Source: a virus
IMG/VR virus record: IMGVR_UViG_3300020578_000040
Span: 1 to 64,000 of that record
DNA: 64,000 bases
Strand: one strand, 5' to 3'
Shown: positions 4,040 to 20,293 of the stretch, piece after piece
How the letters are laid out: every line of letters starts with the position of its first letter
Numbering within the stretch: the stretch's first letter is position 1
Made by a program: the position numbers and the translations under genes
The notes under the pieces: generated by a model
What the model was told of the DNA's origin: nothing
Database searches by the model: none
Seen by the model: the letters and a program-made list of their open reading frames with translations, nothing else

Positions 4040-4387
4040 TGCCCCTCCTCTGTAAGTGTGAGTAGTTTCGCGACTTGCTCACGAGGTCGTCCTCTTCGGT
4101 TCGTTTGACTGCGAGGCACAGTGCTATGTCACGGGGAGTACCGATACCCCGTAGCGCAGTTTCAAGTCATGCTAGGGACAGAGGCGCAAGGGGGGCGACC
4201 CCCGCATTCCTCATCGGCATAGTGGACTCGTTCCCCTCCGCCGACGAGAGGTTCACTACCCTGCCATCGATATTGCAGTCGATGACCCCACGACGGCTGC
4301 AACCGATCCTGGGTGGTTCCCTATGAGGGGTTTCCCCCTCCGCTCTGGGCCTAAAGGCTGTTTTACATCGCCCAGACGATGCCACCA
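4040..4387. other. non-coding interval between early operons
   Basis: No convincing gene lies here. On the minus strand there is a possible promoter (TTGAAA near 4164, with an ACGGGG/CCCCGT inverted repeat around a GGTACT box), a GGGGG-TCG-CCCCC hairpin near 4190-4205, a GGGGG/CCCC hairpin near 4317-4330 and a CATCG/CGATG hairpin just after the ParB-like gene. The last two could act as terminators. Confidence 0.4.
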
Positions 4388-8430: not shown

Positions 8431-8871
8431 CTAAACGAATACTGGTTGATTCTCCGGCCATACATACGGATGGCTGCCATCCGTTGCCGGCCATTGGGGT
8501 CCGTAGTGGTCCGGGTGCTTGCGGATCAAGTTCGACCGGTGCGAGAGCACAACCTCGTCATCGTCGATCCACCACGGCATCTCAGCAGGCTCGTCCGGCA
8601 CGTGAGGCGCGAAGGCCAGTATCTTCTCCCGGCAGGTGTCCTTGTAGCCGCGAGCGATCCACTCGTCGCAGATAGCAACACCATAGACCACGAGTGCCTC
8701 GGTGTAACCCTGCCACATCTTGACCGCCGGATGGGTGCTCCATCCCCTGGCCTGATTGGTGATGCAACGGAGAATCTGGTACGTCTCTACCCGCTGCTTT
8801 CCGAGTCGCTGTCGGTCAAGGCACCGTGCCGTGGCTGAAAAGTCGGACCCATAAGGTACAAATGTCTGCAT
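8431..8871 (-). CDS. MSMEG_6728-like protein (pyrimidine-dimer glycosylase-type)
   Basis: A 146-residue protein starting MQTFVPYGSDFSATARCLD, with RLGKQRVETYQIL, HPAVKMWQGY and LSHRSNLIRKHPDHY. These boxes match the MSMEG_6728 family found in actinobacteria and their phages, often annotated as pyrimidine-dimer DNA glycosylase. A DNA-repair role is inherited from annotation and not proven. GGAGGGA precedes the ATG. Confidence 0.88.
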   Translation of the reverse strand: MQTFVPYGSDFSATARCLDRQRLGKQRVETYQILRCITNQARGWSTHPAVKMWQGYTEALVVYGVAICDEWIARGYKDTCREKILAFAPHVPDEPAEMPWWIDDDEVVLSHRSNLIRKHPDHYGPQWPATDGSHPYVWPENQPVFV

Positions 8872-8925
8872 AGTAATTCCCTCCTTCCAGAGAACCTACC
8901 GTGCAGGCACTTGCCCGCCAAATCG

Positions 8926-9456
8926 TCAGCCGGGGACAGGCCCCGAGAAGCGCCATGGACGCCATCCGCTGCCCTCCCACAGGCGGAGCGCGAAGGTCAG
9001 GTTCTTCTCGGCGTCGAACATGTCCTTGGGGTGGTTCCATCCCATGTCCGACAGCCACTTGCTATGAACCTTGTTGATTTGGGTCAAGCCGGCGTCAGCA
9101 CCGTTCCAGGCTTCTACCTGGCACCGTGATTCGCGCCAGATGACCTGGCTCAAGAACGACCATTCCTCTTCGGGCCAGCCGACCTGAATGGCTAGGTCGT
9201 GCCATTCCCCACACTTGCCATAGGTGAGGCGGGCCAGTCCCACCCAGTCGACACCGCTCAAGTCGGGGACCGTTGTGGTTGGGGCCGGCGGAACCGTCTC
9301 GGGAGCCGCCGTCGTAGTTGGGGCCGGCGCTGCAACGGTCGTGACTGGACTAACCGTCACCTCCGTCCGCTGTGAGTCGCCCTGAGGATTCGCGCATCCG
9401 GCGAGGGCGGTGATTGCAGCAATGGCAATAACGGTTTTGTTCAGTCTTCGGCGCAT
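8926..9456 (-). CDS. lytic transglycosylase-like lipoprotein
   Basis: A 176-residue exported protein. A basic start and hydrophobic stretch lead to a lipobox LAGC (Cys 21), then a Thr/Pro/Ala-rich linker (31-68), then an SLT-like domain with the catalytic-type Glu in WRESR (Glu 109), GADAGLTQIN and a C-terminal LWEGSGWRPW. Such domains cut peptidoglycan glycan strands. Early position and lipid anchoring suggest wall remodelling from inside the host rather than lysis. It has its own promoter. Confidence 0.87.
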   Translation of the reverse strand: MRRRLNKTVIAIAAITALAGCANPQGDSQRTEVTVSPVTTVAAPAPTTTAAPETVPPAPTTTVPDLSGVDWVGLARLTYGKCGEWHDLAIQVGWPEEEWSFLSQVIWRESRCQVEAWNGADAGLTQINKVHSKWLSDMGWNHPKDMFDAEKNLTFALRLWEGSGWRPWRFSGPVPG

Positions 9457-9536
9457 TGATATTTCCTTCTCTAGGGGACAGGGGCGAGCGGACTGGAAGG
9501 GTTAGGTGTCCGCCTATGGCAGTAGGTGATCCATCG

Positions 9537-9564
9537 AGTATACCATCTTTGCTTCGTAACGCAA
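9537..9564 (-). promoter_or_regulatory. promoter of the transglycosylase gene
   Basis: TTGCGT (9564-9559), 16 bases and TATACT (9542-9537) on the minus strand, about 80 bases before the gene. The -10 box is closer to the ordinary sigma-70 consensus than the phage array promoters are. Confidence 0.55.
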
Positions 9565-9608
9565 CGGCAACGTCCCATTAAATTGCTGTTGTCTATATAA
9601 CAGGATTT

Positions 9609-9824
9609 GAGCCCCGCTTTTTGTTTTCCGCTGGGATGGCTGTTGGGCCTCGATGATTTCCCACCATCATGGATTCTAGCCCCGCTCCCTCGATGAAAGC
9701 AATTCGACTGCCGGGGCTGCGAAGCGACACGCCACCACGGGGCTTGCGGCCGGCGAACCGCGCGTATCGCCCACACGCCGGCAGGATCGGCGCGTATCCC
9801 CGTTCACCCCGGATTCGCGCGTAT
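9609..9824 (+). repeat. AGCCCCGC/GCGCGTAT module, copy 1
   Basis: Two AGCCCCGC boxes (near 9609 and 9669) and two GGGGCT partners (near 9711 and 9738) are followed by three co-oriented GCGCGTAT copies at 9760, 9790 and 9817. It occupies the divergent region between the leftward and rightward gene sets and contains no gene. Confidence 0.75.
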
Positions 9825-9863
9825 CTGGAGCCTCCCCCGCCCCCGACAGGCTCGCCCGCCCCC

Positions 9864-10033
9864 TGGGGGGTGCTGGGGGTGCTGGGGGCGTTACCCGCCC
9901 CCTGGGGGCGTTCTAGGGGGCGTTCTGGGAGGTCTGGGGCGCCCCTCTATGGGGGGGCGTTCTGGGGGGCGTTCTGGGGGGTCTGGGGGTGCTGGGGCGT
10001 TTCGGGGGTCTGAGCAGGGGAAACGCTGGGGGC
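9864..10033 (+). repeat. G-run cluster with repeated GGGGGCGTTCT
   Basis: More than a dozen runs of 4-7 G lie within 170 bases, in units such as GGGGGCGTTCT and TGCTGGGGG, on the plus strand. Many sets of four runs with short loops are available, so G-quadruplexes could form. It lies between the two divergent transcription units and upstream of the first rightward promoter, a typical place for an origin or switch. No gene is visible. Confidence 0.7.
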
Positions 10034-10087
10034 AGACGCGAAAGACAGGCAAGAAAGTGCCTCTGACCAGGGGTTTTGTTGATTGAC

Positions 10088-10117
10088 TTGACACTTACAA
10101 CACCCAAGGGCTAAGGT
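10088..10117 (+). promoter_or_regulatory. first rightward array promoter
   Basis: TTGACA (10088-10093), 18 bases and TAAGGT (10112-10117). The leader continues with TTTGTCGG, as in other operon-head promoters of this phage. Confidence 0.6.
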
Positions 10118-10192
10118 GATGTTTGTCGGAGCACAGGGCAACGACACGGAGGGCACACACCCTCCGCCCTACAGAAAGGGAACGGTGTTCAC

Positions 10193-10303
10193 ATGGACCC
10201 CGAAGATTACGACCCCGATTACGAGGGTTACATCGCCGACCCGGAGGCGTTCATCATCGAACTCCTCGGAGAGGATGGGTGGGACATCGACCCCGAGGCG
10301 TGA
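10193..10303 (+). CDS. tiny acidic protein, paralogue A
   Basis: A 36-residue protein (MDPEDYDPDYEGY...) with AFIIELLGEDGW near its end. AAAGGGAA precedes the ATG. It is clearly related to the protein at 10998-11126 (shared PDYEGY, EAFII and LLGEDGWD boxes). Small acidic phage proteins of this kind often mimic DNA or bind host proteins; nothing more is known here. Confidence 0.8.
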   Translation: MDPEDYDPDYEGYIADPEAFIIELLGEDGWDIDPEA

Positions 10304-10310
10304 GCCTCAG

Positions 10311-10330
10311 CCGGGGGGGAAACCCCCCGG
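10311..10330 (+). terminator. GC hairpin with GAAA loop
   Basis: An 8-bp stem (CCGGGGGG / CCCCCCGG) eight bases after the stop codon. No U-tract follows. Confidence 0.55.
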
Positions 10331-10450
10331 CACCCCGAACCACCCCAGGAGGGGGCTAGGCAGCCGACAGGCATGGGACCTAGTTCGACCGTTCGATTCG
10401 GCACTGGTTCACGATCGGGCACTCCCGCCCGACAGAAAGGAAAGAGACAC

Positions 10451-10564
10451 ATGGACACCTGCCACTACTGCGAGAGAATCCTCACCGATCACATCGTGAG
10501 GCACGGCGACTACCTCGCCTGCGAGACGTGCGAGGCCTGCGAGGAGCCAGAGTACGACGAGTGA
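10451..10564 (+). CDS. 37-aa zinc-ribbon peptide
   Basis: A 37-residue protein starting MDTCHYCERIL and continuing LACETCEACEEPEYDE. Two CxxC pairs make a compact zinc ribbon. AAAGGAAAGAG precedes the ATG. It is similar in size and Cys spacing to the 47-residue protein at 14894. Function unknown. Confidence 0.78.
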   Translation: MDTCHYCERILTDHIVRHGDYLACETCEACEEPEYDE

Positions 10565-10574
10565 CCGCCTCGAT

Positions 10575-10595
10575 CCCCCCTCACATCGAGGGGGG
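10575..10595 (+). terminator. GC hairpin
   Basis: CCCCCCTC and GAGGGGGG form an 8-bp stem with a five-base loop just after the zinc-ribbon gene. Confidence 0.5.
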
Positions 10596-10640
10596 ACAGG
10601 CACATCCCTGGTTACGCGCTGAGATCGAGGTCGAGAGCCC

Positions 10641-10782
10641 CGCACATAAAGGAAGGCAGGAAGCCCCGCGCTCACTCGACCAAGCGGGGCTGCGGCTCAC
10701 CGCGCGTATGCCGGCGCGTCCGCGTGTCGCGCGTATGCGTGAGTCACGGCGCGTATCGTGGCAGGGCAGGAACGGCGCGTAT
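10641..10782 (+). repeat. AGCCCCGC/GCGCGTAT module, copy 2
   Basis: Two AGCCCCGC boxes and one GCGGGGCT partner (an 8-bp stem with a 14-base loop) are followed by GCGCGTAT at 10702, 10729, 10749 and 10775. The next phage promoter is 120 bases downstream, preceded by CTGCTAGATGGCAC, which recurs at 12508. Confidence 0.8.
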
Positions 10783-10904
10783 CTCGCCCCCTCTCCCCAC
10801 CCTCCCCATTCTATGGCGGCGACCCTCTCGCCGTCCACCGGACACCCTGCTAGGAAGGTCACGGTGAGCATAAGTCCTGCTAGATGGCACATTCTGAGCA
10901 TGAT

Positions 10905-10933
10905 TTGACTCGTCCCCTTGGTGCTGATAGGTT
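10905..10933 (+). promoter_or_regulatory. phage promoter, operon-head class
   Basis: TTGACT (10905-10910), 17 bases and TAGGTT (10928-10933) inside CTGATAGGTTCAG. The leader continues GGTTGTCGG. Confidence 0.85.
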
Positions 10934-10997
10934 CAGGGTTGTCGGAGCAACCGAGCAACGACACGGGACACACTCCCGAGACCACAGGAGGACGGAC

Positions 10998-11126
10998 ATG
11001 GGACCGGACTACTACGACGACGACTACGAGGGGAACCCCGATTACGAGGGTTACCTGCTCGACGGGGAGGCGTTCATCATCGCACTCCTCGGAGAGGACG
11101 GGTGGGACACCGACCCCGAGGAGTGA
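10998..11126 (+). CDS. tiny acidic protein, paralogue B
   Basis: A 42-residue acidic protein, MGPDYYDDDYEGNP then PDYEGYLLDGEAFIIALL and a GEDGWDTDPEE end. It matches the 36-residue protein at 10193 over about 30 positions, so the two arose by duplication. GAGGACGG precedes the ATG. Confidence 0.8.
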   Translation: MGPDYYDDDYEGNPDYEGYLLDGEAFIIALLGEDGWDTDPEE

Positions 11127-11132
11127 GCGGTC

Positions 11133-11158
11133 GGGGTGGGGGCGCAAGCCCCCGCCCC
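11133..11158 (+). terminator. hairpin with GCAA tetraloop
   Basis: GGGGTGGGGGC and GCCCCCGCCCC pair around a GCAA loop after the stop codon. The GNRA-type loop is shared by several inter-gene hairpins in this array. Confidence 0.65.
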
Positions 11159-11220
11159 ACCCCCTCGGGGAACTGTGCCACACCCTCATGACAGACTGAC
11201 CTCAACAGAAAGGAGCCACC

Positions 11221-11403
11221 ATGTGGCAGGAAGCAAGATGCAAGGGCAAGACCGAACTGTTCTTCGCCCCCCACGGGGAGCGCGAGCAGGCACGGAACGA
11301 GCGAGTGAGCAAGGCTCTCGCGCTCTGCGGAGTCTGCCCCGTCCGTCAGCAGTGTGCCGACGCGAAGGGCGACAACGAGGGAATCTGGGGTGGGGTCGCA
11401 TGA
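11221..11403 (+). CDS. whiB: WhiB-like regulator 1
   Basis: A 60-residue WhiB-like protein. It has one early Cys (ARCKGKTELFFAP), then a CGVCPVRQQC cluster and GIWGG, the four Cys that hold a 4Fe-4S cluster in this family plus the G[VI]WGG turn. The basic C-terminal DNA-binding tail is absent, as in other short phage WhiB proteins, which act by binding the host sigma factor. A good AAAGGAG site precedes the ATG. Confidence 0.95.
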   Translation: MWQEARCKGKTELFFAPHGEREQARNERVSKALALCGVCPVRQQCADAKGDNEGIWGGVA

Positions 11404-11456
11404 CCCCACCTCACCACCCCGGCAAGATCGAACACCCAACCCAGAAAGGAAACCCC

Positions 11457-11747
11457 ATGAAGAGCATCACTGTCAAAGACCGTGAGTACCCGATCGAGGA
11501 GGTCGAGGTCCCGGAAGGAACCCTGCGATTCGTCACCGCCACGGTGCAGTTCGACGACGACGACACGCCCCTCGATGGCGCGATCATCGCCATCGGAACC
11601 GAGTTCGACGAGTTGGTGACCGCAGAGGCGGCATCCGACGAACTGCTCCGGTTCGATTTGTCGATCTTCTTCTACTGCGCCGACGAGGACGAGTTCATCG
11701 ACCTGGCTGGGAACGGAGTCGCCGGCATGGAGTGGCGGATCGTCTGA
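11457..11747 (+). CDS. hypothetical acidic protein
   Basis: A 96-residue acidic protein (MKSITVKDREYPIEEVEVPE...) with a predicted all-beta N-terminal half and a Glu/Asp-rich C-terminal half. AAAGGAAA precedes the ATG. It follows whiB in the same unit. No family recognised. Confidence 0.8.
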   Translation: MKSITVKDREYPIEEVEVPEGTLRFVTATVQFDDDDTPLDGAIIAIGTEFDELVTAEAASDELLRFDLSIFFYCADEDEFIDLAGNGVAGMEWRIV

Positions 11748-11752
11748 CCGAC

Positions 11753-11792
11753 TGGACAGGCTCCCCTGCCACTGCTAGAATCAGTGGTGGGG
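11753..11792 (+). promoter_or_regulatory. phage promoter with hairpin -10
   Basis: TGGACA (11753-11758), 17 bases and TAGAAT (11776-11781). The -10 box is the loop of an 11-bp hairpin (11764-11774 with 11782-11792) that includes two G:T wobbles. Confidence 0.75.
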
Positions 11793-11831
11793 AAGCCGTC
11801 CCCCTACCTACTACCGAAAGAAAGGAACCCG

Positions 11832-11960
11832 ATGAACCGCAAGAAGTGGAACGAGCAAGATCGATTTGCTTTCGCTACCCAGCGTCTGCGAGCATCGACG
11901 ATGCCGAACAAGAAAGCACAGGCTCGCAAGAGTGCCTGTCGAAAGTGGAGGGCAGAATGA
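11832..11960 (+). CDS. 42-aa basic peptide
   Basis: A 42-residue Lys/Arg-rich protein (MNRKKWNEQDRFAFATQR, ending ACRKWRAE), probably nucleic-acid binding. GAAAGAAAGGAA precedes the ATG. It overlaps the next start by ATGA. Confidence 0.72.
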   Translation: MNRKKWNEQDRFAFATQRLRASTMPNKKAQARKSACRKWRAE

Positions 11961-12205
11961 ACTACTACCAAATCCGGGCGCTCGTCCGAGTCGTGTTCTG
12001 GGGAGCGGTCCTGTTCCTCGCCGGCACGGGGTGCGCGAAACTGGTCGAGATGGCTAGCCTCACCGCCGACAACCCGTGCGCGGTGAACGTGAACCGTGAC
12101 TTCACATGGACGACAAACGCGCCACTCAACATCGACCTGTGCGATCACCCCGAGGGGATCATGCTGTTCGATGACGGCCACTGGGAATGGGACTACGAGG
12201 GATAG
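11957..12205 (+). CDS. small membrane/exported protein
   Basis: An 82-residue protein with a hydrophobic N-terminal segment (LVRVVFWGAVLFLAGTGCAK, residues about 8-27). The GTGC near its end could be a lipobox. The acidic C-terminal domain would then be outside the cell. Translation is coupled to the preceding basic peptide. Confidence 0.78.
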   Translation: MNYYQIRALVRVVFWGAVLFLAGTGCAKLVEMASLTADNPCAVNVNRDFTWTTNAPLNIDLCDHPEGIMLFDDGHWEWDYEG

Positions 12206-12230
12206 GAGGCCTCGGCCCAACCAGGGCCGG

Positions 12231-12417
12231 AAGCCCCGCCTCGATCATTGTAACGACACATCGAGGTCGTAAGCCCCGCTCACGCTGGTGACCAGCGGGG
12301 CTCGAGGGCCGGCAGAGAATACGGGGCTCTCGCCCACCGCGCGTATCCTCGCTCGCCGTGAGCGCGCGTATCGCCAGACCGGCGCGTATGTACGGAACCG
12401 GCTGAAACCGCGCGTAT
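12231..12417 (+). repeat. AGCCCCGC/GCGCGTAT module, copy 3
   Basis: Two AAGCCCCGC boxes, then GCGGGGCT and GGGGCT give nested stems. GCGCGTAT follows at 12339, 12364, 12382 and 12410. Downstream lie CCACGGTAGGCACA (about 12468) and CTGCTAGATGGCAC (about 12508), both shared with other modules, and then a promoter. Confidence 0.8.
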
Positions 12418-12524
12418 CCCACCGGCTCGTCCTGTCCTATCTATGCCCCCCAACCTAGCAGACCGAGCCACGGTAGGCACAAGAGCAGGGGTTTCGGTGC
12501 GTTTGCCCTGCTAGATGGCACGAT

Positions 12525-12553
12525 TTGACTCGGCTCCTTAGGGCTGATAGGTT
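12525..12553 (+). promoter_or_regulatory. phage promoter, operon-head class
   Basis: TTGACT (12525-12530), 17 bases and TAGGTT (12548-12553) within CTGATAGGTTCAG. The leader forms GTCGGC/GCCGAC. Confidence 0.85.
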
Positions 12554-12596
12554 CAGGTTTGTCGGCAACACCGCCGACCGAAGCAAAGGAGCCACC

Positions 12597-12863
12597 ATGC
12601 TGTGGAGGCAGGTACTCACCACCATCCAGTCCGACGACCTGAGCGTCTGCCCGCCCGACCTGCGGGACGAGATTCGTCAGGCCTGTGACGAACTCATGGC
12701 CGTGAACGTGGGCGAACGCACCACCAGCGTCGGACTCACGACCCGTCAGGTGTTCGACCTCGCCCGTCGGTTCGCCACCTCGCCCGACCTCCGTGAGGAG
12801 TCGCTCATCTGGAAGCGGCACATCATCCGGCACTACTGCTGGGTCTACCGCCGACCGATTTGA
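12597..12863 (+). CDS. hypothetical helical protein
   Basis: An 88-residue protein starting MLWRQVLTTIQSDDLSV, mostly helical and ending in a Trp/His/Arg-rich stretch (WKRHIIRHYCWVYRRP). AAAGGAGCCACC precedes the ATG. The stop codon runs directly into the next promoter. Function unknown. Confidence 0.82.
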   Translation: MLWRQVLTTIQSDDLSVCPPDLRDEIRQACDELMAVNVGERTTSVGLTTRQVFDLARRFATSPDLREESLIWKRHIIRHYCWVYRRPI

Positions 12864-12901
12864 CAGTCCCCTCTACCCCTGATAGGTTCAGGGGTGGAGG
12901 G
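12860..12901 (+). promoter_or_regulatory. phage promoter with hairpin -10
   Basis: TTGACA (12860-12865), 17 bases and TAGGTT (12883-12888). TAGGT is the loop of a 14-bp hairpin (12869-12882 with 12888-12901) with one G:T wobble. Confidence 0.85.
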
Positions 12902-12934
12902 AACACCACCCACCACCAACCCCGAAAGGAAGCC

Positions 12935-13147
12935 ATGCCCACCATGCCCATGCCCACCCTGTCCCCCGAGGCCGACGCTCGGCTCGTCATGCCCCGAGCG
13001 TACCTCGCTCAGGCTCGTTCCTACTGTGCCGAGGTGTACGCCGACGCTGACTCCACGCTCACCGAGAAGTGGGAGGCCTCAGCCCTGCTCGCCACGGCGG
13101 AGAGCAACTTCCGCACCGCCCTCACTCGGGAGTTGGTGGGGCGATAA
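12935..13147 (+). CDS. hypothetical small helical protein
   Basis: A 70-residue protein (MPTMPMPTLSPEADARLVM...) with a Pro/Met-rich start followed by two Ala-rich helices. AAAGGAAGCC precedes the ATG. It shares a unit with the next gene. No family recognised. Confidence 0.78.
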   Translation: MPTMPMPTLSPEADARLVMPRAYLAQARSYCAEVYADADSTLTEKWEASALLATAESNFRTALTRELVGR

Positions 13148-13196
13148 GCCCCACCCACCCCGAACCCATCTCACCAACCCAGAAAGAGAGAAACCC

Positions 13197-13556
13197 ATGA
13201 CCACACTCACCCAGTCAGTCATCGACTACCTGAACGCCCGCAAGGCCTGCGAGGAAGCGGAGCAGGCGAAAGCCCGAGCCGAAGCCATGCTCCAGCAGGC
13301 CTACGCCAAAGCCGGCGTGGACTTCGCAGTCGTGGACGGCACGAAGGTCGCCATCGTCAGGGGCGAGCGTCCTAAGTACGACCCGACCCGACTGGCGGAA
13401 CTCGTCACCAGCGAGGTGTTCGCCAGCGTCACGAAGCAGGAAGTGGACGGCACGAAGTGGAAGGCGGCTCTGACCCTCGGGAACATCGCCCCCGAGGTGG
13501 CGGAAGCCGTGACCACGCTGACCACCTACCAGCAGGTGCGAGTCAGCAAGGTCTGA
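13197..13556 (+). CDS. coiled-coil phage protein, paralogue 1
   Basis: A 119-residue protein with an Ala/Glu-rich coiled coil (residues 9-37) and a beta-rich C-terminal half ending QQVRVSKV. It is related to the protein at 21896-22285: both have the Ala/Glu helix, AGvDf/h, a [RK]-rich strand, a KQ.VD..[KA]..A segment and a final QVRV strand. Function unknown; duplicates may bind alternative partners. Confidence 0.83.
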   Translation: MTTLTQSVIDYLNARKACEEAEQAKARAEAMLQQAYAKAGVDFAVVDGTKVAIVRGERPKYDPTRLAELVTSEVFASVTKQEVDGTKWKAALTLGNIAPEVAEAVTTLTTYQQVRVSKV

Positions 13557-13565
13557 CCGAGGGAC

Positions 13566-13583
13566 GGGGGGCGAAAGCCCCCC
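13566..13583 (+). terminator. hairpin with GAAA tetraloop
   Basis: GGGGGGC and GCCCCCC pair around GAAA just after the stop codon and before a phage promoter. Confidence 0.6.
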
Positions 13584-13596
13584 ACCCTCCCCCGAT

Positions 13597-13638
13597 TTGA
13601 CAGTCTCCCTTACCCCTGATAGATTCAGAGGTGAGGGG
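13597..13638 (+). promoter_or_regulatory. phage promoter with hairpin -10
   Basis: TTGACA (13597-13602), 17 bases and TAGATT (13620-13625). The flanks pair over about 14 positions with one mismatch and G:T wobbles. GGGGAAACCCC follows in the leader. Confidence 0.85.
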
Positions 13639-13665
13639 AAACCCCAACAGCAGAAAAAGGAAACC

Positions 13666-14100
13666 ATGACCACCATCACCCAGATCGCGAGCACGATCGA
13701 CGAACTTGTCCACCGAGAGTTGGGCGACAACCAGTTCGACATGTACAGTCGCCTGTATGTCACCGACCCCGATGGGGCTTGGATGATCGGACAGTCGCAC
13801 GACCCGTACGACATGTTCGACGGCGACACCGCCGTCACGCGCCCCCGTGGGGCGACCGCCGTGGGCTTCGTGTGTACGGGCTGGGCGGCTCCGATCACGG
13901 ACACGCCCACGGACACGCCCCCGAGCCAGAGTCCTGATCGTATCCGAGTGCGAATCACCGTCGCCTACAACGGCTCCGAGTGGACGACCGTAATGCGTCG
14001 CGAGGGCGAGAACACGCCGGACATCATGGAGGAAGCCGGAGCAGGCCCGCTTGCCGACGCAATCGAGTTCTGGTGGGCAGAGGCCGAGGTCGCCTTCTGA
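13666..14100 (+). CDS. hypothetical protein
   Basis: A 144-residue acidic protein (MTTITQIASTIDELVHREL...) with a central VGFVCTGWAAPI segment, a Thr/Pro/Asp spacer and a C-terminal beta strand plus helix (RIRVRITVAYNG...ADAIEFWWAEA). The layout resembles phage proteins that carry a modest alpha/beta fold; no function can be given. Confidence 0.83.
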   Translation: MTTITQIASTIDELVHRELGDNQFDMYSRLYVTDPDGAWMIGQSHDPYDMFDGDTAVTRPRGATAVGFVCTGWAAPITDTPTDTPPSQSPDRIRVRITVAYNGSEWTTVMRREGENTPDIMEEAGAGPLADAIEFWWAEAEVAF

Positions 14101-14110
14101 CCCACTCCGA

Positions 14111-14136
14111 GGCTGGGGGGCGCAAGCCCCCTAGCC
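14111..14136 (+). terminator. hairpin with GCAA tetraloop
   Basis: GGCTGGGGGGC and GCCCCCTAGCC pair around GCAA, ten bases after the stop codon. Confidence 0.65.
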
Positions 14137-14170
14137 ACCCCAACATCAACTATCACCCCGAGAGGAACAC

Positions 14171-14377
14171 ATGAACATCACCATCACGACCACCACCGAG
14201 ACCCTTCAGAACATCGAGACCCTGCTCTGGGACTACGAGCGAGCGCTCGATGATCACCTGTACCGAATCTTCCCCGAGGCCTCGACCCGTCAGGCTCTGA
14301 ACGACATCCACACTCTGCGGGCCGACCTGAACCGAATGATCGGTCAGGCCGAGCGTCAGATTCTCGCCAAGCAGTGA
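14171..14377 (+). CDS. hypothetical small helical protein
   Basis: A 68-residue protein with two probable amphipathic helices after a Thr-rich start (MNITITTTTETLQNIE...). GAGAGGAA precedes the ATG. It is the last plus-strand gene before a single minus-strand gene. Function unknown. Confidence 0.8.
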   Translation: MNITITTTTETLQNIETLLWDYERALDDHLYRIFPEASTRQALNDIHTLRADLNRMIGQAERQILAKQ

Positions 14378-14393
14378 TCGAGGTGTAGTCCCC

Positions 14394-14603
14394 TCAGGCT
14401 TGAGCGTCCCACTTACCGAGTGGGCATCGGGCCGAGGGGACACGCACCTTGAGTGGCATCACGCACCCGCACTCACGGCACTGGCTCAGCGCATTGAGTC
14501 GATCGCAGTCCATACAGATCGCGAGCCGGCTCTCCTTGACCTCGTGTGATACGCGCACCCAGGGCAGTCGAAGAATGTCGAGTGGTGTCGCGTCGTCGTC
14601 CAT
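14394..14603 (-). CDS. zinc-ribbon phage protein
   Basis: A 69-residue protein encoded against the direction of its neighbours. It has ICMDCDRLNALSQCRECGCVM, then a Cys in ARCPLGKWDA. The C-x2-C, C-x2-C-x-C and CPxGKW order recurs in small phage proteins near tail genes, probably binding zinc. The gene carries one GCGCGTAT on its own coding strand (14556-14549), so that motif keeps its orientation relative to transcription here. Confidence 0.85.
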   Translation of the reverse strand: MDDDATPLDILRLPWVRVSHEVKESRLAICMDCDRLNALSQCRECGCVMPLKVRVPSARCPLGKWDAQA

Positions 14604-14605
14604 GG

Positions 14606-14731
14606 AAGCCCCGCTTACTACAATAGCAGCAGAGCCCCGCGTGCATTCGTTCTGCCGGGGCTGCAGCGCGCGCGATCGCGCGTATCTCAGGATCGGCGCG
14701 TATCCCTGGGGCCGACGAGATTGGCGCGTAT
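14606..14731 (+). repeat. AGCCCCGC/GCGCGTAT module, copy 4
   Basis: Two AGCCCCGC boxes and a CGGGGCT partner are followed by GCGCGTAT at 14678, 14696 and 14724. GGCCGGCC-rich repeats with CTATCTAT (14745-14800) and CCACGGTTGGCACATGG (14804-14820) lie between it and the next promoter. Confidence 0.8.
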
Positions 14732-14825
14732 CTCCACCCTGCCGGCCCCATCTATGAAGGGCCGGCCCGGCCCCCTATCTATGGCCGGCCCCTATCTATA
14801 GGGCCACGGTTGGCACATGGCCGGT

Positions 14826-14881
14826 TTGACACCGACCCTTGGGACTGATAGGTTCAGGTTTGTCGGCAACCCCGCCGACTC
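14826..14881 (+). promoter_or_regulatory. phage promoter with alternative leader pairing
   Basis: TTGACA (14826-14831), 17 bases and TAGGTT (14849-14854). CCGAC upstream (14832), GTCGG in the leader (14862) and CCGAC again (14874) could pair in two mutually exclusive ways. Confidence 0.8.
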
Positions 14882-14893
14882 AGAAAGGAAACC

Positions 14894-15037
14894 ATGACCA
14901 CCGACACCTGCGAACACTGCCAGGAAGAGCAAGGCCACTACAGAAAGTCGTTCGACACTGTGCTCTGCGACGAGTGCTTATGCGCTTGGGCAGACGGAGT
15001 GCGCGAGCGCGAGCGCGACCTCGACTGGGGAGACTGA
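14894..15037 (+). CDS. 47-aa zinc-ribbon protein
   Basis: A 47-residue protein with CEHCQEEQ and LCDECLCAW, two CxxC pairs spaced as in small zinc ribbons, and an acidic/Arg-rich end. AAAGGAAACC precedes the ATG. It ends six bases before the next gene. Confidence 0.8.
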   Translation: MTTDTCEHCQEEQGHYRKSFDTVLCDECLCAWADGVRERERDLDWGD

Positions 15038-15042
15038 CAACC

Positions 15043-15207
15043 ATGCACACCATCAACCTCCGCGCTGGCGACAACTACCTCGTCCTGACGGACGACGAGA
15101 GCAACTTCGTGGACTTGTTCTACAACTACGAGCAGGCCCAAGAAGTTGCCAACCTGATCCTGGAGGAAGGCTCCAGCAAAGTCCAGGTCATCAGGATCAC
15201 CCTCTGA
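15043..15207 (+). CDS. hypothetical small protein
   Basis: A 54-residue protein (MHTINLRAGDNYLVLTDDE...) with a beta-alpha-beta look and VQVIRITL at the end. It follows the zinc-ribbon gene by five bases and is followed by a GCAA hairpin. Confidence 0.75.
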   Translation: MHTINLRAGDNYLVLTDDESNFVDLFYNYEQAQEVANLILEEGSSKVQVIRITL

Positions 15208-15215
15208 CCAATCCC

Positions 15216-15239
15216 GGCCGGGGGCGCAAGCCCCCGGCC
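15216..15239 (+). terminator. perfect 10-bp hairpin with GCAA loop
   Basis: GGCCGGGGGC and GCCCCCGGCC pair perfectly around GCAA, eight bases after the stop codon. It is the cleanest member of the GNRA-loop hairpin set. Confidence 0.7.
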
Positions 15240-15259
15240 ACCAAACAGAAAGAGAAACA

Positions 15260-15544
15260 ATGGGACACCAATCAGCAACCGAGATGGCAGGAATGCCGAT
15301 CAGCCTCGAACAGCAACTCACGTGGCACCTCACGTCGAACCACTACCCGCCGGTTCCGCTCAGCATGATCGAGCCGTGCATGAAGGCCATCGACGCGATC
15401 GTCATGGACGAGCCGAACACGCTCATCGAGTTGCCGGACGGAATCACCTACCGTGACTCGACTCACGCGCCGGCGTGGGCGATCGCGGAGGGTCACCACC
15501 TCCAAGCGTTCATCGACTCCTGCTTCGACGAGTACGAAGACTGA
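15260..15544 (+). CDS. hypothetical protein
   Basis: A 94-residue acidic protein (MGHQSATEMAGMPISLEQQ...) with an LPDGITYRDSTHAPAWAI segment and an acidic end. AGAAAGAGAAAC precedes the ATG. The stop codon lies directly before a hairpin promoter. No family recognised. Confidence 0.8.
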   Translation: MGHQSATEMAGMPISLEQQLTWHLTSNHYPPVPLSMIEPCMKAIDAIVMDEPNTLIELPDGITYRDSTHAPAWAIAEGHHLQAFIDSCFDEYED

Positions 15545-15545
15545 G

Positions 15546-15585
15546 TTGACAACCTCCCCTGCTACTGTAGATTCAGTAGCAGGGG
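15546..15585 (+). promoter_or_regulatory. phage promoter with perfect 12-bp hairpin
   Basis: TTGACA (15546-15551), 16 bases and TAGATT (15568-15573). CCCCTGCTACTG and CAGTAGCAGGGG form a perfect 12-bp stem whose loop is exactly the -10 hexamer. Confidence 0.85.
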
Positions 15586-15616
15586 GCCCAACCCCATCAA
15601 ACAGAAAGAAGGAATC

Positions 15617-15862
15617 ATGTCCGACCACATCCAGCGCATCCAGCCCATCCTGCCCAACGGCGCGATGTTCTCCATCGTGGAGTCGTTCGGCCGCAAAGAG
15701 GTGGCTGTTCTTCAGAACGACGAGTTCGTCTCGCCCACCGAGTGGGCCGACATCGACACCGGCGACGACATCGTACGCCTGTCCGACGTGGCCGACGAGT
15801 TGGCCGTGTACCTCATGAAGGCCATCTCGTGGGGCCTCAACAACACGGAGGTGGCGCGATGA
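15617..15862 (+). CDS. hypothetical protein
   Basis: An 81-residue protein (MSDHIQRIQPILPNGAMFS...) with a beta-rich N-terminal half and a C-terminal helix. AGAAAGAAGGAATC precedes the ATG. It overlaps the next gene by ATGA. Confidence 0.8.
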   Translation: MSDHIQRIQPILPNGAMFSIVESFGRKEVAVLQNDEFVSPTEWADIDTGDDIVRLSDVADELAVYLMKAISWGLNNTEVAR

Positions 15863-16089
15863 GCCTGGGCGCGCTCGCACAGGACATCCTCGACGACAAG
15901 TGGGTTCTCTGCTCGATCACGGAGGCTCTAGAGCACGCGCTCGATGAGCACCTGATCGACAGGACCTACCTCGTCTACGACGAAGCCGGCGACAGCAGGC
16001 CCGCCACGGACATCGAGTTTCTCATGGCGGTTCAGGAGATACTCGTCGCGCTCAATGCCGGCGCCATCGGCGACTCAGCCGTAGCATGA
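15859..16089 (+). CDS. hypothetical helical protein
   Basis: A 76-residue mainly helical protein (MSLGALAQDILDDKWVLCS...). It is translationally coupled to the previous gene. No motif is visible. Confidence 0.78.
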   Translation: MSLGALAQDILDDKWVLCSITEALEHALDEHLIDRTYLVYDEAGDSRPATDIEFLMAVQEILVALNAGAIGDSAVA

Positions 16090-16143
16090 GGTGAAGGGGG
16101 TCAGGGCAACCTGGCCCCACTCGCCCGCCCACCATCTGGGCTA

Positions 16144-16310
16144 GAGCCCCGTCCCCATACGAGGGTCGAGAGCCCCGCGCACATCGCTAGATGCGGGGCT
16201 GCCGAAGCAAATAACTAGCGGGGCTGCCGGCCAAAACCGCGCGTATCAAAACCGCGCGTATCAAAACCGCGCGTATCCCAGGATGGCGCGTATGCCGGCA
16301 CAGCGCGTAT
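16144..16310 (+). repeat. AGCCCCGC/GCGCGTAT module, copy 5
   Basis: AGCCCCG, AGCCCCGC, GCGGGGCT and GCGGGGCT give nested stems, followed by five GCGCGTAT copies at 16239, 16254, 16269, 16286 and 16303, spaced 15, 15, 17 and 17 bases. The first three sit in tandem 15-base units (AAACCGCGCGTATCA type). This is the densest array. Confidence 0.82.
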
Positions 16311-16387
16311 GCCCTCGCGCGTGCGCACGGTGTGCGTATGTGCGTGCGTGCGCCCGTTCCTCTCTCCCTCCACCACCTCGGCCCGAT

Positions 16388-16416
16388 TTGACAGCGACCC
16401 CTGGGGCTGATAGGTT
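16388..16416 (+). promoter_or_regulatory. phage promoter, operon-head class
   Basis: TTGACA (16388-16393), 17 bases and TAGGTT (16411-16416) within CTGATAGGTTCAG. The leader has GTTGTCGG and GGGGAG/CTCCCC. Confidence 0.85.
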
Positions 16417-16462
16417 CAGGGTTGTCGGGGAGAACGGCTCCCCAACAAGAAAGGAGCGCACA

Positions 16463-16783
16463 ATGCGCTGGAACGCAAGCACTCAGGACGTGGTGGACCA
16501 CCTCGTCTTCTCAGGAGCGGACACGTACGACTGGTATCGCCAGTTGGATGTGGACGGCGACGATGCCATCACCATCGGGATGGACGATCCGAACGACGAG
16601 GACGGTGCCATCTTCACGACGATGTCGGCTACCGCCATCCGCCGGCTGGCGGAGCAGTTCGTCAAGGAGGAGAAGCCCGGCTACCGGGTTGTCGCCCGGG
16701 CGATCCAGGACGACGACTTCGATTCGGACGCCGCCGACGTGGTCCTTCAGTGGGCTGTGTTCGGGACGCTCGTCTACGGCTGA
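16463..16783 (+). CDS. hypothetical acidic protein
   Basis: A 106-residue protein (MRWNASTQDVVDHLVFSG...) with GMDDPNDEDGAIFTTMSATA and a C-terminal helix-rich part. The layout, an N-terminal helix, acidic loop and AIRRLAEQF, resembles small phage adaptor proteins. AAAGGAGCGCAC precedes the ATG. The stop codon overlaps the next promoter's flank. Confidence 0.82.
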   Translation: MRWNASTQDVVDHLVFSGADTYDWYRQLDVDGDDAITIGMDDPNDEDGAIFTTMSATAIRRLAEQFVKEEKPGYRVVARAIQDDDFDSDAADVVLQWAVFGTLVYG

Positions 16784-16784
16784 T

Positions 16785-16825
16785 TTGACTCAGCCCCCTG
16801 CCACTGATAGATTCAGTGGTGGGGG
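16785..16825 (+). promoter_or_regulatory. phage promoter with 13-bp hairpin
   Basis: TTGACT (16785-16790), 17 bases and TAGATT (16808-16813). Arms 16795-16807 and 16813-16825 pair over 13 positions, and both non-Watson-Crick positions are G:T. GGTGGGG/CCCCACC can form instead in the leader. Confidence 0.88.
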
Positions 16826-16856
16826 GCAACCCCACCAACAACAGAAAGGAAACCCA

Positions 16857-17216
16857 ATGAACATCCTGTTCATCCACGACGACTCCGAGCGAGGACTCGT
16901 CAATGTCCGCAACCTTGCGCCCGAGCACATCGACATCAACTCGATGGTCGGCGGTTGGTTCGACTGCGTACGGTCCCGTGACGGTGCGATCGTCGGGTAC
17001 GTCAATGACACCGGCTTGACCGATGGCATGGCGCCCAACCTCGTCGCATCGCTCCTGTTCGCTCGTCCGCTCTACGGTCCCTGCGTGGTCGTGGGCGGTC
17101 TCAACGAAGCCGGCGAGTACGACGGCGACAACCACGACGTGCCGGAGAGCGTCATCCGGGGAGTGCTCCCGCTGAACGACATCTTCCGGATGCGGCCCGA
17201 GTCCACCACGGTCTGA
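16857..17216 (+). CDS. DUF3846-like phage protein
   Basis: A 119-residue protein with IDINSMVGGWFDCVRS, VNDTGLTDGMAPNLVAS and GPCVVVGGLNEAGEYDGDNHDVPE. This order (VGGW..CV, VN..GL..G..PN, GP.VVVG) is that of DUF3846-type actinophage proteins of unknown function. AAAGGAAACCC precedes the ATG. Confidence 0.88.
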   Translation: MNILFIHDDSERGLVNVRNLAPEHIDINSMVGGWFDCVRSRDGAIVGYVNDTGLTDGMAPNLVASLLFARPLYGPCVVVGGLNEAGEYDGDNHDVPESVIRGVLPLNDIFRMRPESTTV

Positions 17217-17217
17217 T

Positions 17218-17261
17218 TTGACCGCTCCCCCTGCGCCTGATAGATTCAGGTGTGGGGGGAG
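17218..17261 (+). promoter_or_regulatory. phage promoter with 16-bp hairpin
   Basis: TTGACC (17218-17223), 17 bases and TAGATT (17241-17246). Arms 17225-17240 and 17246-17261 pair over 16 positions; the three non-Watson-Crick positions are all G:T. This is the longest stem of the set. Confidence 0.88.
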
Positions 17262-17284
17262 AACAACCCCACAGAGAGGAACCC

Positions 17285-17464
17285 ATGACGAAGTTTTACA
17301 TGGTCGAATACATCGTCCGTACCTACGTCCACGCCGACGACTCAGATCAGGCGCGCGAACTGTCGGCACGAATGCTCGACGAGAAAGAAGCACGAGGCGA
17401 ACTCGCCCGCGAGTGTGTCGAACTCGACTGGTTCGAGTTGGACGAAGAAGGAGAGATGATCTGA
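17285..17464 (+). CDS. hypothetical small acidic protein
   Basis: A 59-residue protein (MTKFYMVEYIVRTYVHADD...) with a strand-helix-strand pattern and an acidic end. GAGAGGAACCC precedes the ATG. No family recognised. Confidence 0.8.
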   Translation: MTKFYMVEYIVRTYVHADDSDQARELSARMLDEKEARGELARECVELDWFELDEEGEMI

Positions 17465-17497
17465 ACCATGTTCCGTGAACCAATCGAGGAGCCAGAG

Positions 17498-17701
17498 ATG
17501 ACCAAACTCAACCCCCAGGAGCGAGCCCTGCTCATCCTGAACAACGCCAAGCGTGACATCACCAACATCATGGCTCTCCCCATGGAGGACTACGAGGTGA
17601 TCGAACGGCAACTACGTGACTCGATCGCGTGGCTCATGTCGGGAAGCCGGCACAGGCCTCTGATCCGCGTCGCCTTGACAAAGGGCGAAGAGCCCTTCTA
17701 A
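17498..17701 (+). CDS. hypothetical helical protein
   Basis: A 67-residue helical protein (MTKLNPQERALLILNNAKR...). The ATG at 17498 is chosen because GAGGAG lies eight bases upstream; the earlier ATG at 17468 has no ribosome site. Function unknown. Confidence 0.75.
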   Translation: MTKLNPQERALLILNNAKRDITNIMALPMEDYEVIERQLRDSIAWLMSGSRHRPLIRVALTKGEEPF

Positions 17702-17743
17702 CATCAACCAACAGCAACACCCACCTATAGAAAGGAACTACAA

Positions 17744-17953
17744 GTGGAAGCAACAGAAACCAAGAAGAAGATCACCGATACGAACCTCGATGAGTTTAAG
17801 CACCGAATGGGCACCATCGACGTGGAGGGACTGATCGTCTCGATCACCGTGACGGACGCTCGATTCCGCTACGGACACATCGACCTTAAGGTCACGCCCA
17901 TCTCGGGCCGTGGCGAGCGTTGGGTCGAGAGCACCAAGGTGACTCTGATCTAA
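17744..17953 (+). CDS. hypothetical beta-rich protein
   Basis: A 69-residue protein starting at GTG (AAAGGAAC upstream), MEATETKKKITDTNLDEF, with alternating strands to the end (VTPISGRGERWVESTKVTL). It ends exactly where the convergent minus-strand gene ends. Confidence 0.75.
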   Translation: MEATETKKKITDTNLDEFKHRMGTIDVEGLIVSITVTDARFRYGHIDLKVTPISGRGERWVESTKVTLI

Positions 17954-18181
17954 TCAGAACAGAGTTAGAGACATGTCAGGGGGGTTGTCTTTCAGATCAA
18001 CACAGGTCTGACAGGCAACCCCGCCGATCATCTTCAGCATCTTCACATCGCCGGCATTGAGTTTGCCCTTCTTCGTGATGCGGGTATAGCCCTCGATGCG
18101 CAGCCACACGTCCTTCTCAATCCGAAGAATGTCGCGGCCACACAGGTCGCACTGATACAGCGGGGGAAGATGTCCGTCCAT
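17954..18181 (-). CDS. zinc-binding protein on the opposite strand
   Basis: A 75-residue protein with QCDLCGRDI early and VACQTCVDL late, two CxxC pairs. A TACGAT box ends six bases before the ATG, with TTGAGT 17 bases upstream, so the mRNA is probably leaderless. It is one of only a few genes in the array that read leftward. Confidence 0.83.
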   Translation of the reverse strand: MDGHLPPLYQCDLCGRDILRIEKDVWLRIEGYTRITKKGKLNAGDVKMLKMIGGVACQTCVDLKDNPPDMSLTLF

Positions 18182-18187
18182 CGCTCA

Positions 18188-18216
18188 ATCGTATCGAAGC
18201 CCCGCACTCAACTCAA
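18188..18216 (-). promoter_or_regulatory. leaderless promoter
   Basis: TTGAGT (18216-18211), 17 bases and TACGAT (18193-18188) on the minus strand, six bases before the ATG at 18181. Confidence 0.7.
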
Positions 18217-18406
18217 GACGGAAGCCCCGCTTTCCCAGGGGAGGAGTCTGTCTAGCGGGGCTGCGAATCGCTCGATCCTTACGGGGCTGCGGCGCGTAAC
18301 CGAGGCCCTCGACGCCGGCCACCAACCGCGCGTATCCGACACCCGAGCACCGCGCGTATCCTGAACCGCGCGTATGCGCACGCACGGTAGGCACATGGGC
18401 GCGTAT
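18198..18406 (+). repeat. AGCCCCGC/GCGCGTAT module, copy 6
   Basis: AAGCCCCGC twice, then GCGGGGCT and CGGGGCT give nested stems. GCGCGTAA at 18292 is followed by GCGCGTAT at 18328, 18352, 18368 and 18399. CACGGTAGGCACATGG lies between the last two copies. The first AAGCCCCGC overlaps the spacer of the leaderless minus-strand promoter. Confidence 0.8.
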
Positions 18407-18460
18407 GCGCTCGCGCGCGCGTGTGCGTGTTCCTCTCTCCCCCCTCCACGGAGCGTCGAT

Positions 18461-18489
18461 TTGACACGCTCACTACGGTCTGATAGGTT
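18461..18489 (+). promoter_or_regulatory. phage promoter, first of tandem pair
   Basis: TTGACA (18461-18466), 17 bases and TAGGTT (18484-18489). The leader has TGTCGG-GGAAA-CCGACA. Confidence 0.85.
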
Positions 18490-18541
18490 CAGTGTTGTCG
18501 GGGAAACCGACACCCCCGAATCCCCTCCACGGAGCGTCGAT

Positions 18542-18570
18542 TTGACACGGCACACTGTGGGTGATAGGTT
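18542..18570 (+). promoter_or_regulatory. phage promoter, second of tandem pair
   Basis: TTGACA (18542-18547), 17 bases and TAGGTT (18565-18570). It repeats the preceding promoter, including a shared CCCCTCCACGGAGCGTCGAT flank, with no gene between them. Confidence 0.85.
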
Positions 18571-18619
18571 CGGGGTTGTCGGGGAAACCTGACGCTACCT
18601 ACTACAGAAAGGAATCATC

Positions 18620-19141
18620 ATGATTTGTCGTTCATGCGACACGCCCGCAGTGGGCAAGAGTGCCTACTGCTCCACTCACCGCGCCGAGGCACGGGCCGCG
18701 TGGAAGGCCAAGATCAGCGACGAGGCCGAGGCCCGCAAGGCCCGCAAGGCCGGTCACGCCGAACTCTGGTCGCGCGCCGTTCAGGCCGGTATCAAGGCGT
18801 GGCACGAAGCCATCCCCACCCCCATGCTCGTGGGCACGGCGAAGGGTCTGTTCGACGACTCGTTCGACGAGACCAAACCCGTGTACCACGTGAGCGAGGG
18901 CGTGTGCGGTTTCGCGTCGCTCGTCGTGAAGCCCGCGAACTCGTCGTTCGCTCACTGGCTCAAGGCCAACGTGCGCACGAGCAAGCACTACGGCGGTGGC
19001 CTCTCCGTGTGGTCGTCCGTCATCGTGCCGGAGGACGCGCGCAGTCAGTCCTACGAGCGCAAGGACGCGGCCATGCGCGCCGTGGCCGAGGTGCTCCGCG
19101 AGGCCGGTATCAAGGCCTCGTGCTGGAGCAGGCTCGACTGA
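18620..19141 (+). CDS. hypothetical protein with N-terminal zinc finger
   Basis: A 173-residue protein. The first 20 residues hold a CRSCDTP...YCSTH knuckle, then a Lys/Ala/Arg-rich helix (25-47), then a soluble domain with WLKANVRTSKHYGGGLSVWSS. The finger suggests nucleic-acid or protein binding. AAAGGAATCATC precedes the ATG. No family recognised. Confidence 0.83.
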   Translation: MICRSCDTPAVGKSAYCSTHRAEARAAWKAKISDEAEARKARKAGHAELWSRAVQAGIKAWHEAIPTPMLVGTAKGLFDDSFDETKPVYHVSEGVCGFASLVVKPANSSFAHWLKANVRTSKHYGGGLSVWSSVIVPEDARSQSYERKDAAMRAVAEVLREAGIKASCWSRLD

Positions 19142-19149
19142 GCGAGGGC

Positions 19150-19167
19150 GGGGGGCGCAAGCCCCCC
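19150..19167 (+). terminator. hairpin with GCAA tetraloop
   Basis: GGGGGGC and GCCCCCC pair around GCAA directly after the stop codon. Confidence 0.6.
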
Positions 19168-19180
19168 ACTCCCCCTCGAT

Positions 19181-19219
19181 TTGACAGACCCACCTACCGC
19201 TGATAGATTCAGTGGTGGG
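19181..19219 (+). promoter_or_regulatory. phage promoter with 11-bp hairpin
   Basis: TTGACA (19181-19186), 17 bases and TAGATT (19204-19209). Arms 19193-19203 and 19209-19219 pair over 11 positions with two G:T wobbles. Confidence 0.85.
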
Positions 19220-19248
19220 AGCAATACCCCAACCAAGAAAGAGGAACA

Positions 19249-19614
19249 ATGACCATCACCAACATCACGGGAACCGTGCTCATCGGACACGTGGGCGTGG
19301 ACTCCGGCCAACTCATGATCTGCGACCCGTGCTACATCAAGGCCGACGACTGGGCCGACCAGCCGTACGCCCCCGCAAACGCCGTGGACGGCAAGTACCC
19401 GTTCACCTACAACGGCGCGTGTGGCGCGACGCTCAATGAGGACAGTGCTGGGCAGTTGGGCACGTTCGATACCGGCATCGCGTTCGCATCGGGCTACGGC
19501 GACGGCACCTACCCCGTGTACGCCACGTACGTCGATGGGCGCATCGCCAGTGTCGAGATCGTGCTCATCAGCGAGGACGAGGACGACGAGGACGAGGAGG
19601 AGTACCTCCTCTGA
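19249..19614 (+). CDS. DUF4241-like protein
   Basis: A 121-residue protein with HVGVDSGQLMICDPCYI, YNGACGATLN, AFASGYGDGTYPVYATY and VEIVLISED followed by a very acidic end. The GVDSG..ICDPCY and GYGDGxYPVY boxes resemble the DUF4241 fold found in bacteria and phages; function unknown. GAAAGAGGAAC precedes the ATG. Confidence 0.85.
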   Translation: MTITNITGTVLIGHVGVDSGQLMICDPCYIKADDWADQPYAPANAVDGKYPFTYNGACGATLNEDSAGQLGTFDTGIAFASGYGDGTYPVYATYVDGRIASVEIVLISEDEDDEDEEEYLL

Positions 19615-19615
19615 T

Positions 19616-19656
19616 TTGACAGCGACCCCTGCCCCTGATAGATTCAGGGGTGGGGG
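19616..19656 (+). promoter_or_regulatory. phage promoter with 13-bp hairpin
   Basis: TTGACA (19616-19621), 17 bases and TAGATT (19639-19644). Arms 19626-19638 and 19644-19656 pair over 13 positions, two of them G:T. Confidence 0.87.
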
Positions 19657-19688
19657 AAGCAATACCCATCAGCAACAGAAAGGAAATC

Positions 19689-19964
19689 ATGACCACCATC
19701 ACCACCATCAAGCAACGGAACATCGACGCCGGCCACTACTTCTTCGACACAAAGGCCATGCGGTTCTTCAACAGTCGCGTGAGTCGCACCACCTACGGCG
19801 ACTTCTTCGTGACCAGCGAGAAAGGCCCCGACAAGGTGCGCCGGTACACGGTGCGCTACAGCGACCCCGCCACCGGCCACATCAACACGGTCGGAGAGTT
19901 CCAGCAGTTCGACACGCTGTGGGGCGCGCTCGCGGAAGCGCGACGCCTCTACCTCGCGATCTGA
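19689..19964 (+). CDS. conserved phage protein, MRFFxSRV family
   Basis: A 91-residue protein with YFFDTKAMRFFNSRVS, DFFVTSEKG and RRYTVRYSDP...GEFQQF. The MRFF.SR, FVTSE and YTVR boxes recur in small proteins of many actinophages (DUF7447-like). Function unknown. AAAGGAAATC precedes the ATG. Confidence 0.87.
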   Translation: MTTITTIKQRNIDAGHYFFDTKAMRFFNSRVSRTTYGDFFVTSEKGPDKVRRYTVRYSDPATGHINTVGEFQQFDTLWGALAEARRLYLAI

Positions 19965-20254: not shown

Positions 20255-20293
20255 GCAACCCAACCAAATACCTACTACAGAAAGGAATCCCCA

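Follow-up and report, generated by a model that had tools for sequence, protein, structure and literature searches.

The SAS and ESAS motifs of Cluster K mycobacteriophages, as described in PMC3203893, are repeated intergenic motifs of actinophages that carry inverted repeats and lie in the non-structural half of the genome, mostly in one orientation, with an inverted-repeat sequence that varies between phages; the locus described here is similar in all of these respects. The SAS itself, however, is given there as a 13-bp GGGATAGGAGCCC sequence at the ribosome site (PMC3203893), whereas the unit repeated here, a promoter module, spans several hundred bp and has upstream arrays, and one module also holds a G-rich tract. 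In the window, meaning the whole stretch of 64,000 bases that was analyzed, GGGATAGGAGCCC is not enriched (two matches with up to two mismatches, against 1.5 expected). The locus also resembles the stoperators of Cluster A phages and their immunity repressor, for which numerous regulator sites across the phage genome, early promoters included, have been described (PMC9283540). Unlike the stoperators as presented in that source, the GCGCGTAT sites here form clusters of three to five that precede promoters, there is a single G tract, and no repressor was found. In bacterial DNA, a G-rich element upstream of a promoter is known from the pilE G-quadruplex of Neisseria gonorrhoeae (PMC3547852; PMC10094033), but that element is tied in those accounts to pilin gene conversion, whereas the tract here is ∼170 bp long and in a phage, and its folding is predicted. 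A survey of quadruplexes in dsDNA viruses gives viruses of Actinobacteria as rich in such motifs, with a mean of 2.27 per kb (PMC8036883); the tract here is notable for its length and the number of its long G runs, not for its peak score.

The window comprises bases 1–64,000 of an 81,366-base record of an uncultivated virus. The virus is an actinophage, as evidenced through gene calls made with our own script and through domain searches, which identified three WhiB proteins (at 11,221, 20,991 and 35,142), WhiB having been suggested as a key indicator for actinophages (PMC10202952), in addition to an SSB, a DUF932 protein, a pyrimidine-dimer glycosylase, an SLT lipoprotein and a Toprim/AAA primase-helicase. 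The isolates that best cover the primase-helicase are Arthrobacter phages, with ∼30–33% identity, and for the early AAA protein a set of 50,697 phage records gave no more than two matches, both weak. By the same gene calls, a leftward gene set (lipoprotein, DUF932, SSB) starts at 9456 with the SLT-domain lipoprotein gene (8926–9456, − strand; Pfam SLT E-value 1.4e-6), and a rightward series starts at 10,193 with the gene of a 36-aa acidic protein (10193–10303, + strand), which has a paralogue at 10998–11126 and whose product gave no PHROG match.

The preliminary description of this DNA had noticed repeated G runs between the leftward and rightward genes, linked to a first repeat module, and both observations were borne out: a tract of G-rich degenerate direct repeats, a predicted quadruplex former, lies between the two gene starts at 9864–10033 (+ strand), inside the promoter module that is numbered 1 below. 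G makes up 91 of its 170 bases, the highest density among the 170-bp stretches of the window, and its runs of at least five G number 11, whereas Markov sequences of orders 1 and 3, trained on the whole window or on 8500–22000, reached maxima of only 4, 4, 4 and 5 such runs per 170 bp (four models, 40 sequences per model). The number of G runs is far above chance. The units of the tract consist of CTGGGGG followed by CGTT, TG or T, with GGGGGCGTTCT present in four copies (starts at 9904, 9916, 9953 and 9965), and run starts are mostly 9–13 bp apart and in places 15 or 20 bp (range 9–20). A period of 10 gave the best helical phasing of the runs (p 0.003 against random placement), but this is no better than with the tract's own gaps permuted (p 0.30), and exact phasing was rejected. 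A coding tract was also rejected after reading of all six frames, as the sole through-frame, an open frame of 114 aa at 9669–10013 (+ strand) that crosses most of the tract, was not selected by our gene caller and was judged not to be a gene.

For runs of four or more G with loops of 1–7, the only motif in the window is found at 9951–10008 on the + strand, with none on the − strand; for runs of three or more G, the window has two motifs on the + strand, both within the tract, and 13 on the − strand. The tract therefore contains the four or more G runs with short loops that define a candidate G-quadruplex element. Allowing quadruplexes in RNA folding changed the energy of 9864–10033 from −84.5 to −117 kcal/mol (a gain of ∼33) and that of 9951–10008 from −20.1 to −41.6 kcal/mol (a gain of ∼21), with zero gain for the sub-stretch 9900–9940, all of these energies being predictions that use RNA parameters. 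The 25-base G4Hunter score of the tract peaks at 2.48, with 10776–10817 and 73259–73296 (− strand) higher at 2.52, and 42 clusters of at least 1.5 are present in the 81-kb record, so the tract is not unique by score; what sets it apart is how long it is and how many long G runs it contains, rather than its peak G4Hunter score. Motifs, G4Hunter score and fold gain together agree with the earlier wording of a region prone to quadruplexes, the folding being a prediction.

Eight intergenic stretches of the window pair a GCGCGTAT array with a promoter. Modules 1–7 share one plan, in which right-pointing and then left-pointing AGCCCCG sites are followed by three to five copies of GCGCGTAT, one or more promoters, a TTGTCGG leader and a ribosome site. 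GCGCGTAT occurs 39 times in the window against 1.7 expected, AGCCCCG 32 times against 10.6, and the rightward promoter form TTTGAC-N-GATAGGTTC recurs to the right of the tract, a looser pattern of it having 18 matches on the + strand of the window and one on the − strand. Modules 2–5 lie at 10565–10997, 12206–12596, 14378–14893 and 16090–16462, followed by module 6 with two promoters (18182–18619), module 7 with four (21216–21895) and a reduced module 8 (27044–27353), all on the + strand; module 8 has one AGCCCCG site, four copies of GCGCGTAT and one promoter without the TTGTCGG leader, and its array is partly inside a gene called on the other strand (26839–27213). A GGTAGGCACA-type element is present in modules 2, 3, 4, 6 and 7 and absent from modules 1, 5 and 8. 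In modules 2–7 the right-then-left AGCCCCG sites were observed at 10636–10691, 12232–12328, 14607–14662, 16145–16225, 18198–18288 and 21317–21449; many of the steps between sites are 20–26 bp and some 33–68 bp, and the sites are enriched in relatives of different GC content too. They may be terminators or protein sites.

In module 1 the parts follow the same order as in the other modules, with ∼170 bp of G-rich repeats added between its GCGCGTAT array and its proposed promoter. The AGCCCCG sites are at 9610–9744 (+ strand at 9610 and 9678, − strand at 9712 and 9738), three copies of GCGCGTAT are at 9760–9824 (+ strand), and the TTGTCGG leader and a GAAAGGG ribosome site occupy 10123–10192 (+ strand). 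The proposed first rightward promoter, TTGACA-N18-TAAGGT at 10088–10117 (+ strand), was read by eye from its position relative to the leader; it was missed by the pattern that caught the promoters of other modules, and a consensus scan of 9400–10250 returned none. From the last GCGCGTA to the −35 element the distance is ∼263 bp in module 1, compared with 122, 107, 94, 77, 54, 21 and 29 bp in modules 2 to 8, respectively. Taking out the 170-bp tract would leave ∼93 bp, which falls within the range of the other modules, so that module 1 is best regarded as following the common plan with the tract inserted into it. A comparable G tract is absent from all seven other modules.

The reading that we favor, with a probability of about 0.42, is that the tract serves as a control insert specific to this lineage, located in the actinophage's divergent early-gene region and placed before the first rightward early promoter. 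This is suggested by the non-chance G runs, the fold gain, the excess distance between array and promoter, the absence of the tract from other modules, the lack of a called gene in it and the arrays that hold the same slot in two relatives (records A and B, below). Counted against it are the lack of conservation in the eight relatives compared, the want of a second same-population contig across the tract, a promoter that was read by eye and that the consensus scan did not return, the zero fold gain of 9900–9940, the unphased runs, the 114-aa open frame and the lack of a protein linked to the tract. Such an insert would affect the first rightward promoter through the DNA itself: divergent transcription underwinds the DNA between the promoters, which would favor opening of the tract and quadruplex folding on the + strand, and once folded the tract would shield the promoter from proteins bound to the arrays upstream, or adjust how it fires. 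Alternatively, its repeats could be read as duplex by a bound protein. The anatomy, with the tract between the leftward set and the first of eight rightward modules, fits a region of transcription control, in line with the transcription switch that had been put forward as one possibility. If the insert works, it would place an element of the quadruplex or repeat-array type at an early promoter of a phage.

Protein searches returned 12 loci by the DUF932 protein, seven by the lipoprotein and 30 by the AAA protein, of which three belong to the same population as the window, and these loci are not independent, because several overlap or are near copies. The stretch from DUF932 to AAA was compared in eight records, A (G005), B (G004) and L213–L218, several of them closely related. 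A and B were read directly, and one switch from − to + strand was read in each of L213–L218, in which the gene calls show more than one, so that the switch read may not be the corresponding one in every record. No comparable G tract was found in the stretches of the eight relatives, where runs of at least five G or C number no more than three per 170 bp, and the tract is thus not conserved at this site in them. Among 34 related loci scanned, a G4-type motif was found solely in records A and B, each of them having a single short motif with at least four G runs, located in another module beside copies of TTATCCACA, a DnaA box. Of the lineages compared, only this one has the tract.

Before their first rightward gene, A and B each have six GAACACNNGTTCG palindromes (GAACAC-NN-GTTCG), with 0.1 or fewer expected, and these are found nowhere else in the two records of 145 and 129 kb; the slot before the first rightward gene therefore carries arrays elsewhere in the family. 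CGAAC-N4-GTTCG is an SOS box. Arrays of SOS-box-like palindromes (GAAC-N4-GTTC) before early genes of relatives were observed at 9150–9760 of L213 (reversed), 92637–92771 of G005 and 117477–117641 of G004, the L213 array consisting of five palindromes that come after DnaA boxes and a pair of AGCCCCG sites, in a module that lies ∼2 kb to the right of the first switch and thus away from it. TTATCCACA is present in 29 copies within 56 kb of A and in 23 copies within 40 kb of B (0.43 expected in each), partly in one dense cluster of about 500 bp. Dense TTATCCACA arrays near early promoter modules were observed at 18581–19161 of L051 and in other modules of G004 and G005, and a DNA search with the densest matched phage DNA over just 35 bases, in two records. 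By AAA and primase-helicase identity the closest relative is L065, which ends before the divergence point and has a GTGCGCGT version of the array between its AGCCCCG sites and promoters. In these relatives, with their GAACACNNGTTCG, TTATCCACA, L213 and GTGCGCGT arrays, the module plan is thus retained and the arrays differ. Amplified 8-mers of their own were seen in L085 (CGTTATTA/CTAATAAC), L091 (GACCGATA/CGGTCATA) and L086/L087, and are perhaps lineage-specific operators.

With its slot the same as that of the GAACACNNGTTCG array, and with four copies of GGGGGCGTTCT, the tract could instead be an array of duplex operators, its CTGGGGG(CGTT) units being sites of a phage or host regulator that replace the palindromes of A and B. 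The candidate regulators are the three WhiB proteins and an RHH/HicB-like protein (34159–34470) that falls under the Pfam cut-offs and has a weak PHROG match named transcriptional repressor, but none of them is tied to the units, and an HTH-like protein (33564–34166) is under the Pfam cut-offs too, with one called RNase E as its best PHROG match. The units, moreover, vary in length, are non-palindromic and are missing from the other modules. This reading is possible, if rather doubtful, and its score overlaps with that of the control insert, because a control insert could act through duplex binding.

The same-population contigs L034/L212, L025 and L011 match the window at 98–100%, none extends left of 11,216, and no second same-population contig covering the tract was found. 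In 200-bp bins, L212 has 78–88% identity to the window left of 11.8 kb and 99–100% right of it (the cut last bin excepted), indicating that the module series is mosaic near the divergence point in at least one strain. Over 11216–11800, WhiB and its neighbor gene are diverged from L212, with the rest 99–100% identical, and a protein search with 11457–11747 matched the same-population contig only. This diverged segment would be in line with neutral slippage, by which a G-rich repeat without function grew where the spacing of array and promoter is tolerant, and so would the degenerate tandem structure with its short steps, the absence of the tract from the relatives examined and the spacing of 21 to 122 bp among the other modules. 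Nothing similar is seen in the other seven modules, however, despite like surroundings, and the tract sits at the divergence point, probably the likeliest place to matter. Slippage seems to us on the unlikely side, yet it and duplex binding are both strong rivals to a control role. The mosaic break at ∼11.8 kb, together with paralogous genes in modules 1 and 2 that are 89% alike over 94 bp, might also be taken for the trace of a recombination hot spot, at which a quadruplex starts exchange between repeated modules as for gonococcal pilE, but the break is 1.8 kb away from the tract and is present against one contig only, which makes this explanation highly improbable.

The preliminary description had further proposed a replication origin, for which no support was obtained. 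Cumulative GC skew, named there as a check, with a minimum elsewhere counting against the origin, has its minimum at 79,309 of 81,366, with no turn or V near 10 kb, although skew is weak in this genome, and AT skew changes sign at 10 kb, as expected from gene direction. Neither TTATCCACA nor TTGTCCACA boxes occur in the window. Repeats of initiator type are present as GCGCGTAT iterons, but these extend across eight modules, each having a promoter. An origin made up of the lower-GC stretch at 9500–9660, the GCGCGTAT iterons and the G tract together would draw on the GC content of 0.46–0.48 there, adjoining iterated sites, and on the dense DnaA-box cluster of relatives A and B, ∼1.5–2 kb to the right of the divergence point; without a skew turn or a DnaA box, we consider it very unlikely.

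A broader possibility, which we offer as a speculation with the odds well against it, is that these phages form an uncultivated actinophage family with a conserved early-promoter module (inverted AGCCCCG sites, arrays, promoter), the array slots of which are filled per lineage, with DnaA boxes and SOS-box-like palindromes in some, GCGCGTAT or GTGCGCGT in others and a quadruplex-forming G tract here. Host regulator sites or DNA structures would then be interchangeable inputs, or host DnaA and LexA would be titrated. A conserved promoter module with exchangeable arrays, DnaA boxes included, would provide a handle on the way in which early transcription, and perhaps replication as well, is coupled to the host in uncultured actinophages. 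No such arrangement is named in the titles of the DnaA-box literature, among the matches listed, and the literature joining GCGCGTAT and phage has, by title and start of abstract, nothing on phage control repeats.

Searches for the same arrangement in more distant sequences gave no match in phage records for the DNA of 9400–16400 and no relatives among 38 stretches of genome contigs with a DUF932 protein. GCGCGTAT triplets in viral contigs were found in 31 stretches, five of which are from the same population (three contigs: L008/L034, L011 and L025/L027); among the remainder, tblastn with the window proteins matched only L009 and L012, through proteins of the structural half, and the GCGCGTAT array of L013 looks like coding repeats. 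CTGGGG triplets in viral contigs occur in at least 120 stretches, and tblastn of the window proteins against the 120 listed gave scattered matches: L093, L115 and L195 matched structural proteins, L140 a gene of unknown function, L200 an exonuclease, and L159, L172 and L181 primase-type proteins (25–37%). L181, which also has an SSB match near the primase and a 12-bp CTGGGG repeat, was rejected as the same arrangement, as it has no GCGCGTAT, only two AGCCCCG sites and no module promoter.

Elsewhere in the window, a match to the Pistol ribozyme was observed at 4319–4381 (− strand; Rfam score 53.4 bits, cut-off 34.5). A tryptophan halogenase (46726–48201, − strand; Pfam E-value 3.3e-101) is encoded among the leftward genes in the right-hand part of the window, and a 991-aa gene at 53627–56602 (− strand) contains many tandem repeats of 18, 27, 36 and 54 bp and is putatively collagen-like by its repeat pattern.
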